The position numbers and the translations under genes are program-made. A stretch of 64,000 nt of DNA, from assembly GCF_014202275.1 (NCBI RefSeq), contig NZ_JACHGF010000001.1, positions 1,101,734 to 1,165,733 of the forward strand, written 5' to 3'. The notes beneath the pieces are model-generated. The model did no database searches, was not told the origin of the DNA, and saw only the letters and a program-made list of their open reading frames with translations. Below, in pieces: positions 34,575 to 45,920 of the stretch. Numbering within the stretch: position 1 is the stretch's first letter; every line of letters starts with the position of its first letter. Source of the DNA: Rhabdobacter roseus (lineage in GTDB: Bacteria > Bacteroidota > Bacteroidia > Cytophagales > Spirosomataceae).

Positions 34575-35153
34575 TCAATTCATCCGAAAGTTGGACTGTA
34601 CAACAATGTCGTAGCCCAAAAATCCTTTCGCTATTGTCAAGTCTACACTTTTATAATTTTCAACTTGTGTGCCGCAATAATAAATCAACTGCTTCTCCTG
34701 TCCATTGTAATTAATTATTATGTAAGGCTGTTCGCAATGTCCTTTTGAGCCTCGTGCAAGATGTCCCGTTGAAAGTATTTTTTTATTGGTCACAATTGTT
34801 TCTTTTTCAGCTAAATAATAATTGAAAAGGATAAATGCTGAAACGGATATTCCACCCCAAGTCACTAAATTATAAATAATCTGAAGGGGCAAAAATGACG
34901 TAGTAAAGTAAATCGTCAACGTTCTCTTCATAAATGGCGTAAACGCAAATCCTGTTAAAATCCAAATGAGGAAAGGGGTTTTAAATATGATAAATGTTTT
35001 CTGGTAAATATTTATTTCCCATGTGATTAACAAAAGTGAACCAATGAATAGTGACGTTAAAAGGCCATTTATCAATTTGAAATGAGGGATAGTTTGTTTG
35101 AGCTTACGTTGAGTAAAAAACTGTCTTGCATTCTTTTTAATCTTCTGTGTCAT
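34575..35153 (-). CDS. Orphan membrane protein in low-GC island
   Basis: 192 residues from the ATG at 35153. About four hydrophobic segments: LLTSLFIGSLLLITW, PFLIWILTGFAF, FLPLQIIYNLVTWGG and SVSAFILFNYYL. A hydrophilic C-terminus follows. No family recognised. The surrounding DNA is AT-rich and has no RRGTACYY motifs, so it looks acquired. A palindromic element separates it from the gene at 35323. Confidence 0.55.
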   Translation of the reverse strand: MTQKIKKNARQFFTQRKLKQTIPHFKLINGLLTSLFIGSLLLITWEINIYQKTFIIFKTPFLIWILTGFAFTPFMKRTLTIYFTTSFLPLQIIYNLVTWGGISVSAFILFNYYLAEKETIVTNKKILSTGHLARGSKGHCEQPYIIINYNGQEKQLIYYCGTQVENYKSVDLTIAKGFLGYDIVVQSNFRMN

Positions 35154-35180
35154 ATTAGGGGTGTCAATATATGCTGTCGC

Positions 35181-35308
35181 ATAACGTTTTCGGGCTTTGC
35201 GTTCGGGCAGGTTTCGGAGCACAAAGTTTCAATTTATTACTAAAGTTCATTAGAAGCACAAAGCTCCAAGTTTGCACGTCAGCCCGCCTGACGCAAAACC
35301 CGTTTTAC
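35181..35308. repeat. Imperfect palindromic element, cassette-like boundary
   Basis: A left arm from about 35181 to 35226 is partly complementary to a right arm from about 35261 to 35308. The best core is CGGGCTTTGCG at 35191-35201 against CGCAAAACCCG at 35292-35302 (10 of 11 paired), with GGAGC/GCTCC inside. A related half-element appears at about 36030-36065, beyond the next gene. Such bounded palindromes flank cassette genes in some Bacteroidota; the resemblance to integron attC is in layout only. Confidence 0.45.
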
Positions 35309-35322
35309 AGGCAGTTTTTCTA

Positions 35323-35994
35323 TCAAAAGTCAGCTTCATAACCGTGTCCATTTTTTCCGTAAAAAATTAACCATTTCGCTAATGAATAGAGAATATGCAA
35401 CTTACTTTCAATTGTGTCTTCGTCTGTGTCAGGTGGAAGTCGCTGAGATTTTAAGTATTCAACGTTATTCTGTCTAGCTATTGTGTCAGCTACTTCCATT
35501 AGTCGGTTTCCATAGTCCAAAGTTTCGTCTGCCATTTTTGTATTCCACGCTTCGCTCATCAAATCTTCTCCAATAATATTTTCGCAATCTCGGAGAAACT
35601 CGCCACGAAATACATTTTCGTCTTGTCCCATTGCAATATAAACGGGAACACCGTCTTGTTCTTTTGCTAATTCAATTACATAGTATCCGTCATAGTCTTT
35701 CAAAAATTGGTCAAGTGATGGTTTTTGTTCAAGTTCGTCATATCTGTTTCTAATCCATTCCTCAGCTTCTTTGTCTCGTCCAACTCTCGGTGCTTTAATT
35801 GTTTCGTAAGTCTGAATTTGGTTAGCAAACCACTCCTGTAATAACTCGTCTTTTGTCGGCATTTTTTTTCCTTTGAACTTGTCAAAAAATGTCGGTTGTG
35901 GGATTTTGTCTTGTGAAACCATCTCAAAAATTTCAACGAACCTTTTTTCAAATCCTGGTTTCGGTTTTCCCATTGGTCGCATATCTAATCCCAT
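35323..35994 (-). CDS. Orphan hypothetical protein in low-GC island
   Basis: 223 residues, hydrophilic, acidic, no signal peptide or membrane segment. It starts MGLDMRPMGKPKPGFEKRF and has GYYVIELAKEQDGVPVYIA in the middle. I recognise no family. AT-rich and without RRGTACYY motifs, like its neighbour. Possibly a cassette-borne gene such as an immunity protein, but that is a guess. Confidence 0.5.
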   Translation of the reverse strand: MGLDMRPMGKPKPGFEKRFVEIFEMVSQDKIPQPTFFDKFKGKKMPTKDELLQEWFANQIQTYETIKAPRVGRDKEAEEWIRNRYDELEQKPSLDQFLKDYDGYYVIELAKEQDGVPVYIAMGQDENVFRGEFLRDCENIIGEDLMSEAWNTKMADETLDYGNRLMEVADTIARQNNVEYLKSQRLPPDTDEDTIESKLHILYSLAKWLIFYGKNGHGYEADF

Positions 35995-36309
35995 ATCTTA
36001 TTATGTTTTGTCTGTCTTTTAAAATTGCCTACAACTCGTAAATATACGCAAGTTTTGCGGACGCCGCGCGGTAATACTTTTTATGTTTATTTGTACTTTT
36101 GTTAAGACATTGTAGTATTTTAGATGTCGTGCTTATCCTATTTTTAAACCGTCAAAAAGAAAATATTTAGAAACATGCTCCTCCCATTTTATCCAAAAGG
36201 TACTCTCTGTCAGGCTTTACTGATCGAGCCGACTTTTATTTTTTAGGCTATACGTAACTTGCTAAAGTACCTCCGCGTTCAAGGCCTCAGGTGAAGCTAA
36301 TCTTTGATT
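35995..36309. other. Intergenic region at the right edge of the low-GC island
   Basis: 315 bases with no gene. It begins AT-rich with the half-element at 36030-36065 and ends with the first RRGTACYY motifs, at about 36197 and 36264, marking return to typical host DNA. Confidence 0.5.
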
Positions 36310-36759
36310 TTATTCATCCTTGAGCAGGATGTCCAGGATCTTGGGAGAAAGTCTGAATCCAGCCTCGCGCAAGGCTTCAATGAGTGGCCTAGTAGAGTCA
36401 ATGATTGCTTTTTGTTTAGCCATTTGTACTACTCTCAGGGTACCTATAATGGAAATGTTCAGGTTTTGAGCTACCTTCCTCCCTTTCTTTTCATCAATAA
36501 TGAGCAGACTTGACTCTGTTTCCAGAGCCAATGCAATGGCACTCGCTTCGCCTTGGTCCAAAATAGTTTCTAGTTCCTGTACTTTGCTTGTATTTTGAAC
36601 TTCTTGAATCCGGATCCAATTAGGCAATTCTTTTCCAAATTCAACTTGTACAGCTCGGGTAGTTAGGATATGTTGAAATAGTTTTTGGAGAAGATCAAGC
36701 TGCCCAATCTTATCCAGAGAAATCAAACAGCTAGTATCGGAAATTATTACAATACCCAT
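36310..36759 (-). CDS. DUF3368 PIN-like toxin
   Basis: 149 residues from the ATG at 36759. IIISDTSCLISLDKIGQL has the PIN-type Asp near the front; EASAIALALE and LLIIDEKKGRKVA supply further acidic residues of a PIN nuclease site. DUF3368 proteins are predicted RNase toxins paired with UPF0175. The start overlaps the antitoxin stop (TGATG). Confidence 0.85.
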   Translation of the reverse strand: MGIVIISDTSCLISLDKIGQLDLLQKLFQHILTTRAVQVEFGKELPNWIRIQEVQNTSKVQELETILDQGEASAIALALETESSLLIIDEKKGRKVAQNLNISIIGTLRVVQMAKQKAIIDSTRPLIEALREAGFRLSPKILDILLKDE

Positions 36760-36968
36760 CACTCAACTTGGAAATCTTCTTCCGTTTCGCCAAAAATGGA
36801 TACACCGTATTGGCCTACGGTCTCTAGAAATTCTCTTCTACTGATTCCTACAAACGTGGCTGCTTGTCCCGAGCTTACGATGCCTTTGTCGAATAAGGCA
36901 GCCGCCATGGCCATTTTTGCTTCCTTTTCATTCACCTCGTCGGGTAATTCTATGGTTAAAGTTTTCAT
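36759..36968 (-). CDS. UPF0175 antitoxin
   Basis: 69 residues. MKTLTIELPDEV and SSGQAATFVGISRREFLE are the UPF0175 pattern: an acidic front and a helix-turn-helix. Paired upstream with the DUF3368 toxin, as in known type II modules; it probably neutralises the toxin and represses the operon. Confidence 0.85.
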   Translation of the reverse strand: MKTLTIELPDEVNEKEAKMAMAAALFDKGIVSSGQAATFVGISRREFLETVGQYGVSIFGETEEDFQVE

Positions 36969-42601: not shown

Positions 42602-42709
42602 ATGAGTGTCATACAATACTTTTTTGTAGATTTACCCGCTCTTCTCGCTGCGGGTACTTCGGTCACCGTGGGGGAGGGTACTATTTATCCACCCAAACAA
42701 AAACATTCC

Positions 42710-45700
42710 ATGCCAAAAGTTTCTCCTGTCTTGCCTGGCAAGACCGTCCAATCCCTGTTTAGCCGCCAATGGCTCTTCGTTTTCCTCTTAGCGTTTTGCT
42801 GCTTTACGTTCGTACAGGCTCAGCCGGGCCTCGTGGCTTCCTATCCGTTCGACGGTACGTTTAGCGACCAGAGCGACTACGCCAATCACGCCCTAGCTAC
42901 CGGTAATCCTACGTTCACCACCGACCGCCACGGGCAGGCGGGCCGCGCCCTGAGCCTGAGTGGTTGCGGAAATGCGCAATTTCTGCGGGTGCCTCATTCC
43001 GCCAGCTTGCAACTAAGCCAGGGCGCCACGTTTGCGTTTTGGGCCAAAATTGACCTCAGCAGCGGCATGGACCCCGGCACGGGTACCTGCAACGTCAACG
43101 GGCGGCAGGTGTTTTTCTCCAAGGCCGGCGACGGCTGGGGTACTTCGCGGCCCGGCATTCAGGGGCTTACCTACCCCCAAAGCGGTCAGCAGCGCCTGGA
43201 CTTTGAATCGTCTACCAATTCGGGCCAGGTAAATACGGGTACGTTGCGGCCCTTGCCCGGCGCGGCTTGGCACCACTACGCCTACGTGCTCAGTACCTCG
43301 CAGGTGCGACTGTTTGTAGATGGCCAGCTGGTACATACGCAGGCCGTTTCGCTCTCCTTTGCCGAGGCCAACGGCCAGGATCTGTACCTGGGCGTGATGG
43401 GCCCCAAAACCGCCCCCGTGCTGGGCGTTACCTACTGGTACCCGCTGGCGGGTGCCCTGGACGACTTCCGGGTATTCAATCGGGCGCTCACCGACGAAGA
43501 AATAAGTACCGTCTATACCGCCGACTGCGACCCCGTAGCGGTACTGCCCGCGGGCGACGTTACGATCTGTGACGGCCAGCAGGTACTTTTGCAAGCCAGC
43601 CTTCCGGCCAACGTACAGGCGCAGTGGCTCCGCAACGGCCAGCCCATCCCGCAGGCTACGCTGGATAGCCTCCTGGTGACGCAGTCAGGGGCTTACCAGG
43701 TGGAGGCAACACCCCGCGAGGGCCTGCCGTACTTGGCCATGCCGGGGCCGGGAAGTACCCTCAACGACCTGCAATTTGTGGGAGGTACCTCCGGCTGGAT
43801 TGTGGGCGATCACGGTACGTTGCTCAAAACCACCAACGGAAGTACCTGGGACACCATCCCGACGGGCCGGACCGAGCACCTCTACGCCGTCCATTTTGTC
43901 AATACGCAGATCGGCTGGATGGGCGGGGCCAGCGGGCTGCTGCTGAAATCGACCAACGGAGGTACTTCCTGGAGCCCGCAGAGCCTGCCCGTGACGGGTA
44001 GTGTGCAGAAAATCCAGTTTTTCAGCGAGCAGGCAGGCTACGTCCTGGCCGACCGCCTTTTGTTCAAAACCACCAACGGCGGCAGTACCTGGACCACCGT
44101 CACGCTTCCCACGGCCTCCGGCCTGGAGGACATCGCTTTTGTGGATGCGGATTTTGGCTGGATAGCTTCGGATACACAGATTTATAAAACGGAAAATGGC
44201 GGAAGTACCTGGAGCTTGCAAAAGACCGTGACGGCTTGTTTGTTAAGCAAAACCGAGAAAGTATACGCCCTGGATCGAAATAGCTGCTGGGCTTTTTACA
44301 CGGTCTGTCCGAATAATTTACTGACTACGGCCCTTGTAAGAACCTCAAACGGAGGAGCAACGTGGACGGAGCACAATATAGTTGTTCCGGCTAATTTTCC
44401 GTCCCCTTTTACCGTGGCCGACGTGCAGTTTACAGACGTTCAGAATGGCTATGCCATTGGAAGAGTTTTCAAGAGACAATTTGCCTCCGGTCCTGGTGTG
44501 AACGGAGGAGCAGTGTTTAGGACTAGTGACGGTGGACAGACCTGGTCCATGGATTATGATAATCCTTATGAGACATATCCACTCAGTATTTCTTTCCGCA
44601 ACTCGTCGACAGGCTTGGTGGTAGGCCGAGGGGGGCTGATGGTAAATGTATATAGCGCTGGCGGGATTTATAATAACTATTTTACGCGAACCTACCAAAA
44701 TCTTAACTCCGTGGCGGGCGTTGGAAACTACCTCTTGGCGGTGGGTGGAACCGCCCGGGATACCGAAAATGGTCCTCACCCCGACTCAAGGGCCGTCACG
44801 CTGACCTCAACTTCGGCGGGACAGTCCTGGACGAAGCAGGAAAATATGAATGCCTATACGCTTTATCAAGTCAAATTCAAAAACAATCAGTTTGGCTGGA
44901 GGGTAGGGTATGGGGTGCTCAGTAGAACCACCGACGGCGGCGCTACCTGGAACGACTTCTACGGAAATACAATGCCGCAGGCCAAGCGTTTTATTATTTC
45001 CAAAGCCTACTTCCAGACGGAAACTACGGGTTGGTATCTTCTCCGAAATACTAGTTTCGGTCCGGCTTCACTCTACCGTTTCTCAGGTACTTCGCAGACG
45101 TTAGAAAATGTACCCTACAAAGACGCAAACGATCCCTACGAAACCACCCTACTCGACCTGCAATTTGTCAACGACAACGTAGGCTTTGTAACGACGAGCA
45201 ACGGGAAGCTCATCAAAACTACCAACGGCGGCACTACCTGGACGGTACACCTGGTGAAAGCCAACCACCGCCTGAGCAGCTGCTTCTTCGTTTCGGAGCA
45301 GGTAGGTTGGGTACTTGGGGAAAACGGGCTGGTGCTCAAAACCACCAACGGCGGCCAAAGCTGGACCGAGCAGCCCACGGGCTTTGCGGTGAGCCTGAAC
45401 GGCCTTAATTTCCTCTCGGAGCAGGTGGGGTACGTCGTCGGGGGCGGAGGTACTTTGCTCAAAACTACCAACGGAGGTACTTCCTGGAGCCGCATCACGA
45501 CGGGTACTTTCAATACCCTCAACGACATCAACTTCAGCACGCCGGGCCAGGCCTGGATCGTGGGTGAGTGGGGAACGGTCCTGAAATTCGACGCCGCGCA
45601 GTCCAGCTGCACATCTACCTCCCTGGCCGTGAACGTCACCGTGACGCCAGGAGGCGTGTGTGAATCGGTGGCCAGTGGCGCCTGGGGCAACGCCGCCACC

Positions 45701-45856
45701 TGGGGCTGCGGACGGGTACCTTTAGTCTGTGACCAGGTCATCATCAGTCCCAACCACGTGGTTTCGCTCAGCGACGTGGCGCAGGTACGCGGGGTGGAGA
45801 TCCGGCAAAACGGGCAACTCTCGCTTCAGGGCGGCAACCTGCTGGTTGACAATTAG
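42710..45856 (+). CDS. Giant exported protein with LamG and YCF48/BNR repeats
   Basis: 1048 residues from the ATG at 42710; the frame is open upstream but MPKVSPVLPGKTVQSLF starts the signal peptide. First a LamG/concanavalin fold (LVASYPFDGTFSDQ, FAFWAKIDLSSG). Then an Ig-like stretch, then about ten YCF48/BNR-type units, each with LKTTNGGxTW (DNA repeat TCAAAACCACCAACGG). The end (WGNAATWGCGRVP, then VIISPNHVVSLSD) is a typical secreted C-domain, but no T9SS type A or B tail was recognised. The middle (about 44209-45086) differs in base use from the rest. Probably a surface or secreted adhesin-like protein. Confidence 0.85.
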   Translation: MPKVSPVLPGKTVQSLFSRQWLFVFLLAFCCFTFVQAQPGLVASYPFDGTFSDQSDYANHALATGNPTFTTDRHGQAGRALSLSGCGNAQFLRVPHSASLQLSQGATFAFWAKIDLSSGMDPGTGTCNVNGRQVFFSKAGDGWGTSRPGIQGLTYPQSGQQRLDFESSTNSGQVNTGTLRPLPGAAWHHYAYVLSTSQVRLFVDGQLVHTQAVSLSFAEANGQDLYLGVMGPKTAPVLGVTYWYPLAGALDDFRVFNRALTDEEISTVYTADCDPVAVLPAGDVTICDGQQVLLQASLPANVQAQWLRNGQPIPQATLDSLLVTQSGAYQVEATPREGLPYLAMPGPGSTLNDLQFVGGTSGWIVGDHGTLLKTTNGSTWDTIPTGRTEHLYAVHFVNTQIGWMGGASGLLLKSTNGGTSWSPQSLPVTGSVQKIQFFSEQAGYVLADRLLFKTTNGGSTWTTVTLPTASGLEDIAFVDADFGWIASDTQIYKTENGGSTWSLQKTVTACLLSKTEKVYALDRNSCWAFYTVCPNNLLTTALVRTSNGGATWTEHNIVVPANFPSPFTVADVQFTDVQNGYAIGRVFKRQFASGPGVNGGAVFRTSDGGQTWSMDYDNPYETYPLSISFRNSSTGLVVGRGGLMVNVYSAGGIYNNYFTRTYQNLNSVAGVGNYLLAVGGTARDTENGPHPDSRAVTLTSTSAGQSWTKQENMNAYTLYQVKFKNNQFGWRVGYGVLSRTTDGGATWNDFYGNTMPQAKRFIISKAYFQTETTGWYLLRNTSFGPASLYRFSGTSQTLENVPYKDANDPYETTLLDLQFVNDNVGFVTTSNGKLIKTTNGGTTWTVHLVKANHRLSSCFFVSEQVGWVLGENGLVLKTTNGGQSWTEQPTGFAVSLNGLNFLSEQVGYVVGGGGTLLKTTNGGTSWSRITTGTFNTLNDINFSTPGQAWIVGEWGTVLKFDAAQSSCTSTSLAVNVTVTPGGVCESVASGAWGNAATWGCGRVPLVCDQVIISPNHVVSLSDVAQVRGVEIRQNGQLSLQGGNLLVDN

Positions 45857-45878
45857 TAAACAACAAAGTACCCACAAA

Positions 45879-45920
45879 AAAGTACCTTTGGGCGGCCCGG
45901 CGGCGGCTCAAAGGTACTTT
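45879..45920 (+). terminator. Terminator built from opposed RRGTACYY copies
   Basis: 12-bp perfect arms at 45879-45890 and 45909-45920, each containing a GTAC motif, with an 18-base loop and a T-tract after the second arm. It follows the YCF48 gene by 23 bases. Confidence 0.75.

Follow-up and report, generated by a model that had tools for sequence, protein, structure and literature searches.

A candidate segment exchange in a LamG/YCF48-repeat gene of Rhabdobacter roseus, seen against a genome-wide GTAC-core motif

The window, that is, the whole stretch of 64,000 nucleotides analysed here, comes from the genome of Rhabdobacter roseus (G000 in our set of 222 genomes from its family, of which no other bears its genus code). 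It contains a gene for a surface protein, which was identified from the list of open reading frames (ORFs) and from its Pfam matches (PF14870 in five stretches, and PF13385). The gene and its parts are as follows.

42602..45856, plus strand: surface-protein gene, 1084 amino acids, with a signal peptide region, a LamG domain, YCF48-type repeats and a short C-terminal module
42968..43507, plus strand: LamG domain (PF13385, from Pfam), aa 123-302
43532..44134, plus strand: left YCF48-type repeats, aa 311-511, with high GC3 and rich in GTAC
44135..45190, plus strand: candidate exchanged block, codons 512-863, delimited by a GC3 change-point and by phylogenetic discordance at aa 501-860
44209..45086, plus strand: GTAC-free stretch of the sequence-only reading, from the positions of the GTAC sites
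45191..45649, plus strand: right YCF48-type repeats, aa 864-1016, with GC3 and GTAC high again
45650..45853, plus strand: C-terminal module, aa 1017-1084, which by itself has matches at many other places in the genome and in the family

Judged from the sequence, a start at 42710 (MPKVSPV...) is equally plausible for this gene.

The protein belongs to the YCF48-type repeat superfamily, since its PF14870 score is 149.9 bits against a gathering cut-off of 27, and it resembles the YCF48/PSII_BNR repeat proteins in matching this model over five stretches. However, it differs from them in having an added LamG domain and in its score with the NCBIfam Ycf48 equivalog model, 163.4 bits against a cut-off of 326, so that by this cut-off it is not the YCF48 photosystem II assembly factor. 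The nearest named relatives are Spirosomataceae, which are not known to be phototrophs. A structure prediction made without an alignment had a mean pLDDT of 31, and no conclusion rests on it. The C-terminal module occupies the position of the Por_Secre_tail sorting domain of homologues that lack LamG, and it is perhaps another sorting or anchoring domain. Directly 3' of the gene is a strong hairpin (45879-45920, z -4.2) whose stem contains AAAGTACCTTTG and CAAAGGTACTTT and which is followed by T-rich sequence; this is likely a terminator made of two inverted motif copies.

The window contains 607 copies of the tetranucleotide GTAC, as compared to 189 expected from dinucleotide shuffles. The sequence-only reading of this DNA had noticed that about 880 bases inside the one gene have no GTAC, with repeats full of them on either side. 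This is correct: the sites at 44205 and 45087 are consecutive, the gap between them is 882 bp, and its limits of 44209 and 45086 are exact. The flanks exceed the number of sites expected from a codon-pair model that was trained on 279 genes of the genome, and within the block the model predicts 5.9 +/- 2.0 sites where none is observed, a zero that was reached in none of the 500 simulations. Among overlapping 879-bp stretches of the coding sequence of the 279 genes (n=1440), one is without GTAC.

The gap is the second longest of the 606 GTAC gaps in the window. We counted 11 gaps of 870 bp or longer in 444 kb of this genome (the window together with 19 stretches of 20 kb), or about 1.6 per 64 kb. 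Therefore, the gap alone proves little; it is unexceptional genome-wide, but exceptional within a GTAC-rich gene. Five of these 11 gaps have a GC content of 0.35-0.44. Judging by eye from translations, and not from family searches, some of them hold integrase-like, serine-recombinase-like or zeta-toxin-like ORFs, and others look native (TonB-receptor-like, chemotaxis-like and a Clp region). We regard missing GTAC as a hint of import and not as proof of it. No Rfam match that might cause the gaps was found in three gap-bearing stretches (L048, L051 and L054).

The longest GTAC gap in the window (1495 bp) is an AT-rich island at 34598-36093 (GC 0.36), which is probably recently acquired DNA; a nearby ORF (36310-36762) resembles, by eye, a PIN-type toxin. 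A gap of 2767 bp on another contig of the same genome (L054:1186-3953) has integrase-like and small helix-turn-helix-like ORFs, also identified by eye, and is probably an integrated element.

The codon use of the block had also been described as more AT-rich, and the values bear this out: GC is 0.50 in the block and 0.57-0.63 in four flanking segments, and GC3 is 0.53 as compared to 0.65-0.76. In the change-point analysis GC3 drops from 0.74 to 0.52 at 44135-45190, which is the best segment of the whole gene (log-likelihood ratio (LLR) 24.9) and ranks third among the 79 genes of at least 1500 bp. A scan limited to aa 311-1016 places the segment at codons 512-863 with an LLR of 27.4, against a permutation maximum of 5.3 (n=20). 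The low GC3 is due to codon choice and not to protein composition, because a GC3 of 0.71 would be expected from the amino acids of the block and 0.54 is observed. Amino-acid composition is also ruled out as the cause by the columns with identical amino acids, where the GC3 of this gene is 0.72-0.76 in the flanks and 0.54-0.62 in the block.

A search with the block as query (E<=1e-8) matched seven of the 222 family genomes. These are its own genome, G003, Persicitalea jodogahamensis (G017), a Persicitalea metagenome-assembled genome (MAG; G013), Arundinibacter roseus (G011), G242, which is linked by position only to Telluribacter sp. SYSU D00476 (Spirosomataceae), and, weakly, G188. In an order-level sample of 390 genomes (E<=1e-12) this genome was the only match, and the sample is evidently without the known homologue genomes. 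Seven homologous ORFs in five of the other family genomes align across the block. As these homologues carry the block in the same place, it is not an insertion of a foreign segment, and the collinearity indicates that it is an ancestral part of the protein.

Two architectures occur among these genes. An N-terminal LamG domain is present in the gene studied here, in two copies from G003 and in G017 (LamG-type), and a C-terminal Por_Secre_tail, with LamG not found, is present in G013, two copies from G011 and G242 (LamG-less). The copies in G003 and G011 are in tandem. Identity is lower in the block than in the flanks in 24 of the 28 gene pairs, with a mean drop of 0.170 for LamG-type pairs, 0.054 for pairs between types and 0.066 for LamG-less pairs. 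The three LamG-type pairs that include this gene drop by 0.145 and the three without it by 0.195; because the latter drop as much, the lower identity does not single out this genome. The alignments suggest, if anything, that the centre is loose in all of the LamG-type genes.

The composition of the homologues displays a different pattern. The GC3 scan of eight homologues gave LLRs of 4.1-9.2, with four of the eight above all of their own 20 permutations. The GC3 dip of one Arundinibacter copy (G011_1) also begins at codon 512, but ends at 642, and dips of about 0.1 are present in G003_1, G013 and G011_0. Seven of the eight homologues have 5-11 GTAC sites in the block and G011_0 has none. The sharp composition boundary is thus peculiar to this genome and far sharper than in any homologue.

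The phylogenetic signal changes over the same region. In the tree of the flanks this gene groups with both G003 copies and G017 (support 100/99), the division by architecture (LamG versus Por_Secre_tail) is clean, and the alternative of joining this gene to G013 and G011_0 is rejected (p=2e-5). For the block the tree has poor resolution, and imposing the LamG-type clade on it costs 10.1 lnL (C20; approximately unbiased (AU) test p=0.056, or p=0.065 with a distant paralogue added). In a simulation test (LG+G4, fast searches, block-specific branch lengths) the LamG-type clade costs 11.7 lnL in the block against a null maximum of 5.2, and none of 300 simulations reached this cost; for the flanks the opposite arrangement is 30.7 lnL worse, with 3.8 as the highest value among 150 null simulations. 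Simulation tests of this kind are liberal under a wrong model. The best contrary segment by site likelihoods is aa 501-860 (+18.9 lnL, 0 of 1000 permutations), and two other alternative trees place it at aa 521-856 and 506-856. These breakpoints nearly coincide with those of GC3 at codons 512-863.

Two indels and the shared residues agree with a shift in placement. Within the block, six homologues share the deletion of one residue and the insertion of 4-12 residues, and both are absent from this gene, from G242 and from the distant paralogue in its own genome. Residues that this gene shares only with LamG-type genes fall from 23 of 353 positions in the flanks to 4 of 353 in the block. No rise is seen in those that it shares exclusively with LamG-less genes (10 in the flanks and 9 in the block), and no clear rise in those that it has in common with G242 alone (8 and 10). 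In the block, the LamG-type affinity is therefore lost, and no clear new partner takes its place.

Controls indicate that the discordance is in part not tied to this genome, because the two G003 copies are also not sisters in the best block tree. Joining them costs 4.0 lnL, which was reached in one of 150 simulations (AU p=0.35), and keeping the G003 copies with G017 costs nothing (AU p=0.53). On whether block and flanks conflict in phylogeny the tests point both ways: the simulations (0 of 300) and the indels speak for a conflict, but the AU value (p=0.056) is not below 0.05 and discordance also occurs among the other LamG-type genes.

RpoB, and a concatenation that consists largely of rpoB and rpoC, both place this genome outside of the group formed by G003, G017, G013 and G011, which is a clade with 100/100 support in the concatenation. 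The concatenation is made up of nine ORF sets, mostly rpoB plus rpoC, and some of the sets may be overlapping spurious frames. The RpoB protein of this genome is nearest to those of G242 and G015 (97% identity), and a grouping of this genome with G003 and G017 is rejected (AU p=9e-6 for the concatenation and p=0.0003 for rpoB alone). The block placement is compatible with this species tree; the flank placement is at odds with it unless LamG-type and LamG-less genes are old paralogues, which is likely because the flanks split so cleanly by architecture. By composition, it is the block that looks foreign and the flanks that are native in codon use and GTAC density. As the block agrees with the species by rpoB/rpoC, either the block or the flanks may be the part that moved, in this genome or in another.

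We favour the interpretation, with a probability of a little over one half, that the gene is a mosaic in which the central ~1.05 kb was swapped by homologous replacement or gene conversion with a GTAC-poor, divergent homologue. In this case, the LamG/YCF48-repeat gene would have exchanged its central segment (44135-45190) with a divergent collinear homologue. Either homologous recombination or gene conversion would be the mechanism, and recombination is plausible because both copies presumably have the same scaffold of repeats to the left and to the right. The recipient would be this genome, with a native LamG-type gene that has a replaced centre. The donor would be a genome or a since-lost paralogue with a GC3 near 0.5 and few GTAC sites, from outside the Persicitalea/Arundinibacter group, possibly with a LamG-less copy like that of G242. 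The imported tract would show as a GTAC-free window of lower GC3 because the surrounding genome has about 9 GTAC per kb. Since other LamG-type genes also lose their mutual affinity there, the centre of such genes may exchange repeatedly.

Gene conversion and homologous replacement tracts occur in bacterial surface-protein genes, and an exchanged segment here, which we think somewhat the likelier answer, would be an ordinary kind of event. The block resembles such tracts in having a collinear homologue, sharp changes of codon use at its boundaries and a probably discordant placement of one segment. It is unlike them in that no near-identical donor tract was found among the 222 family genomes, where the best amino-acid identity is 51%. 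The paralogue in the same genome is ruled out as the donor; it is 31% identical over the block, and its own block has 11 GTAC sites. The proposal of an exchange with a foreign paralogue is supported in part: the GC3 change-point and the change of placement at aa ~501-860, both independent of GTAC, speak for an exchange, but the donor was not found. Nor is the segment visible only because the motif is missing, as had been suggested, since GC3 and phylogeny also show it and the absence of the motif is insufficient by itself. What is left is a candidate exchanged segment with well-defined limits in a surface protein built of repeats, for which motif absence, codon use and placement lead to nearly the same breakpoints.

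A second explanation, which we consider doubtful, is that the two types are old paralogues whose centres were homogenised between types in the ancestor of G003, G017, G013 and G011, and that this genome keeps the old block. Several of the observations fit it. The flank tree splits exactly by architecture and can follow the species tree within each type, the derived indels sit in the other six genes, a loss of affinity in the block is also seen in the LamG-type pairs that exclude this gene, and the family does duplicate, as is evident from the tandem copies in G003 and G011. However, the sharp change of GC3 and GTAC in this genome, which falls close to the codons where the phylogenetic placement shifts, is left unexplained, and the low GC3 and missing GTAC would have to be a separate local feature without a cause.

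The absence of any exchange is a more improbable explanation. The centre of the LamG-type genes would then be fast-evolving under a different constraint, the discordance would be a rate artefact, and the gap would be a chance event on low GC3. The lower block identity in most gene pairs, greatest among the LamG-type genes, would be expected from this, as would the long gaps in some native-looking genes and the AU value of 0.056. However, the GC3 boundaries are sharp and far stronger than those in the homologues, the misfit was not reproduced in 300 simulations that allowed for block-specific branch lengths, and there are shared indels.

Finally, it is very improbable that the flanks are the import, with a Persicitalea-like LamG-type gene recombined over a resident Telluribacter-like gene whose centre was left in place: the flank placement contradicts rpoB/rpoC (AU p=9e-6) if the types are not old paralogues, and the homologue from G242 has a low GC3 of its own (0.36-0.45), but it is the flanks and not the block that have the codon use and GTAC density of this genome, and old paralogy is a simpler account of them given the split by architecture.

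The genome-wide motif is more interesting than the candidate exchange that it made visible. In the 19 stretches of 20 kb, GTAC is 2.3-fold over the expectation from base composition and 3.0-fold over that from dinucleotides. The excess acts at the DNA level because synonymous choices shift with it: GGN and CGN codons end in T in 59% of the cases before AC and in 13% otherwise, and GTA makes up 49% of the valine codons before C and 26% otherwise. A(A/G)GTACC(C/T) accounts for it, and in 380 kb the leading octamers are AAAGTACC (observed/expected (O/E) 43), AAGTACCT (38), and AAGTACCC and AGGTACCT (both 30). AAGTACC occurs 8,091 + 7,891 = 15,982 times in the genome as compared to 649 + 674 = 1,323 times for the reversed control. 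In 380 kb its O/E is 19.9, and its one-letter changes have values of 0.4-3.3, except for AGGTACC (11.7) and AACTACC (5.4). The density of AAGTACC is 3.3 per kb outside of ORFs of at least 150 aa and 1.9 per kb inside them. The motif is not a strict palindrome; AAGTACC is asymmetric, and GGTACC, AGTACC and AGTACT are 5.5x, 6.3x and 1.7x, respectively. Within the window it is iterated in coding and non-coding DNA, for example at 42654-44205 and 45087-45920.

Uptake-sequence-like inverted pairs of the motif are not clearly supported by the raw counts. Within 60 bp, AAGTACC followed by GGTACTT was found in 20 of 180 non-coding and 24 of 341 coding cases, GGTACTT followed by AAGTACC in 30 of 124 and 22 of 345, and direct AAGTACC pairs in 29 of 180 and 26 of 341.

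Six of the 222 family genomes have AAGTACC at least 1.9 times as often as the control (G000, G017, G015, G242, G003 and G013), and GGTACC is highest in G003 (11,798) and G000 (10,785), followed by G242, G015 and G013. A search of 18 genomes with three methyltransferase families (PF01555, PF00145 and PF02086) found none that matched in all six enriched genomes, of which G013 is 82% complete. A cytosine-5 methyltransferase (G000:C12), 77-78% identical to one from G003, is not supported as the keeper of the motif; close copies are present in G193, G198, G167 and G190, where AAGTACC is not raised, and G017, G013, G015 and G242 have none above 31% identity at E<=1e-20. Its gene adjoins one that may encode a restriction enzyme, by position only and with no NCBIfam match. 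Weak matches of this methyltransferase to two NCBIfam Shiga toxin models (19 bits against cut-offs of 650 and 725) are due to chance.

On balance, we lean towards viewing A(A/G)GTACC(C/T) as a HIP1-like element, with about 16,000 copies of AAGTACC in coding and non-coding DNA of a genome that is nearest to Telluribacter by RpoB, and with variants among genera, such as GGTACC in G003. It would be spread by a mutational, repair or selective process without a recognised methyltransferase, and its absence would mark recent imports even within genes, the present block among them. For HIP1 in cyanobacteria, the values given are an octamer O/E of 55-228 and 300-2700 copies per Mb (Elhai 2015, PMC4390886), to which the octamer O/E of 30-43 and the ~2,300 copies of the heptamer AAGTACC per Mb here are similar. 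Three of the four RGTACY forms are enriched, which likewise resembles the pattern described there for rCCGGy in one Oscillatoria. The element differs from HIP1 in its phylum and motif, in not being a strict palindrome, and in that no methyltransferase associated with it was recognised among the three Pfam families.

There is also a precedent for taking an unusual frequency of oligomers typical of a genome to indicate recent import, in that foreign cyanobacterial genes are described as detectable by oligomer frequencies, with high-frequency octamers important (Elhai et al. 2012, PMC3497702). The present case differs from that described there in that it lies within one gene, concerns a GTAC motif and a member of the Bacteroidota, and that GTAC-poor stretches also occur in native-looking genes. 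Among the literature matches listed, judged by title, there was no report of an iterated GTAC-core motif in Bacteroidota. If the element is an analogue of HIP1 in this phylum, then the question of why such motifs accumulate becomes testable in a second phylum, with genera that have the motif and genera that do not side by side in one family.

Two further observations are minor. At L113:1438-3454 a 338-aa ORF comes after a cytosine-5 methyltransferase, at the position of a restriction enzyme; copies of at least 76% identity are present in five other family genomes, and this may be a mobile type II system. CTAG is strongly depleted in this genome, to 0.23-0.25 of expectation, and it is at or below 0.39 in 17 of the 20 stretches from relatives.
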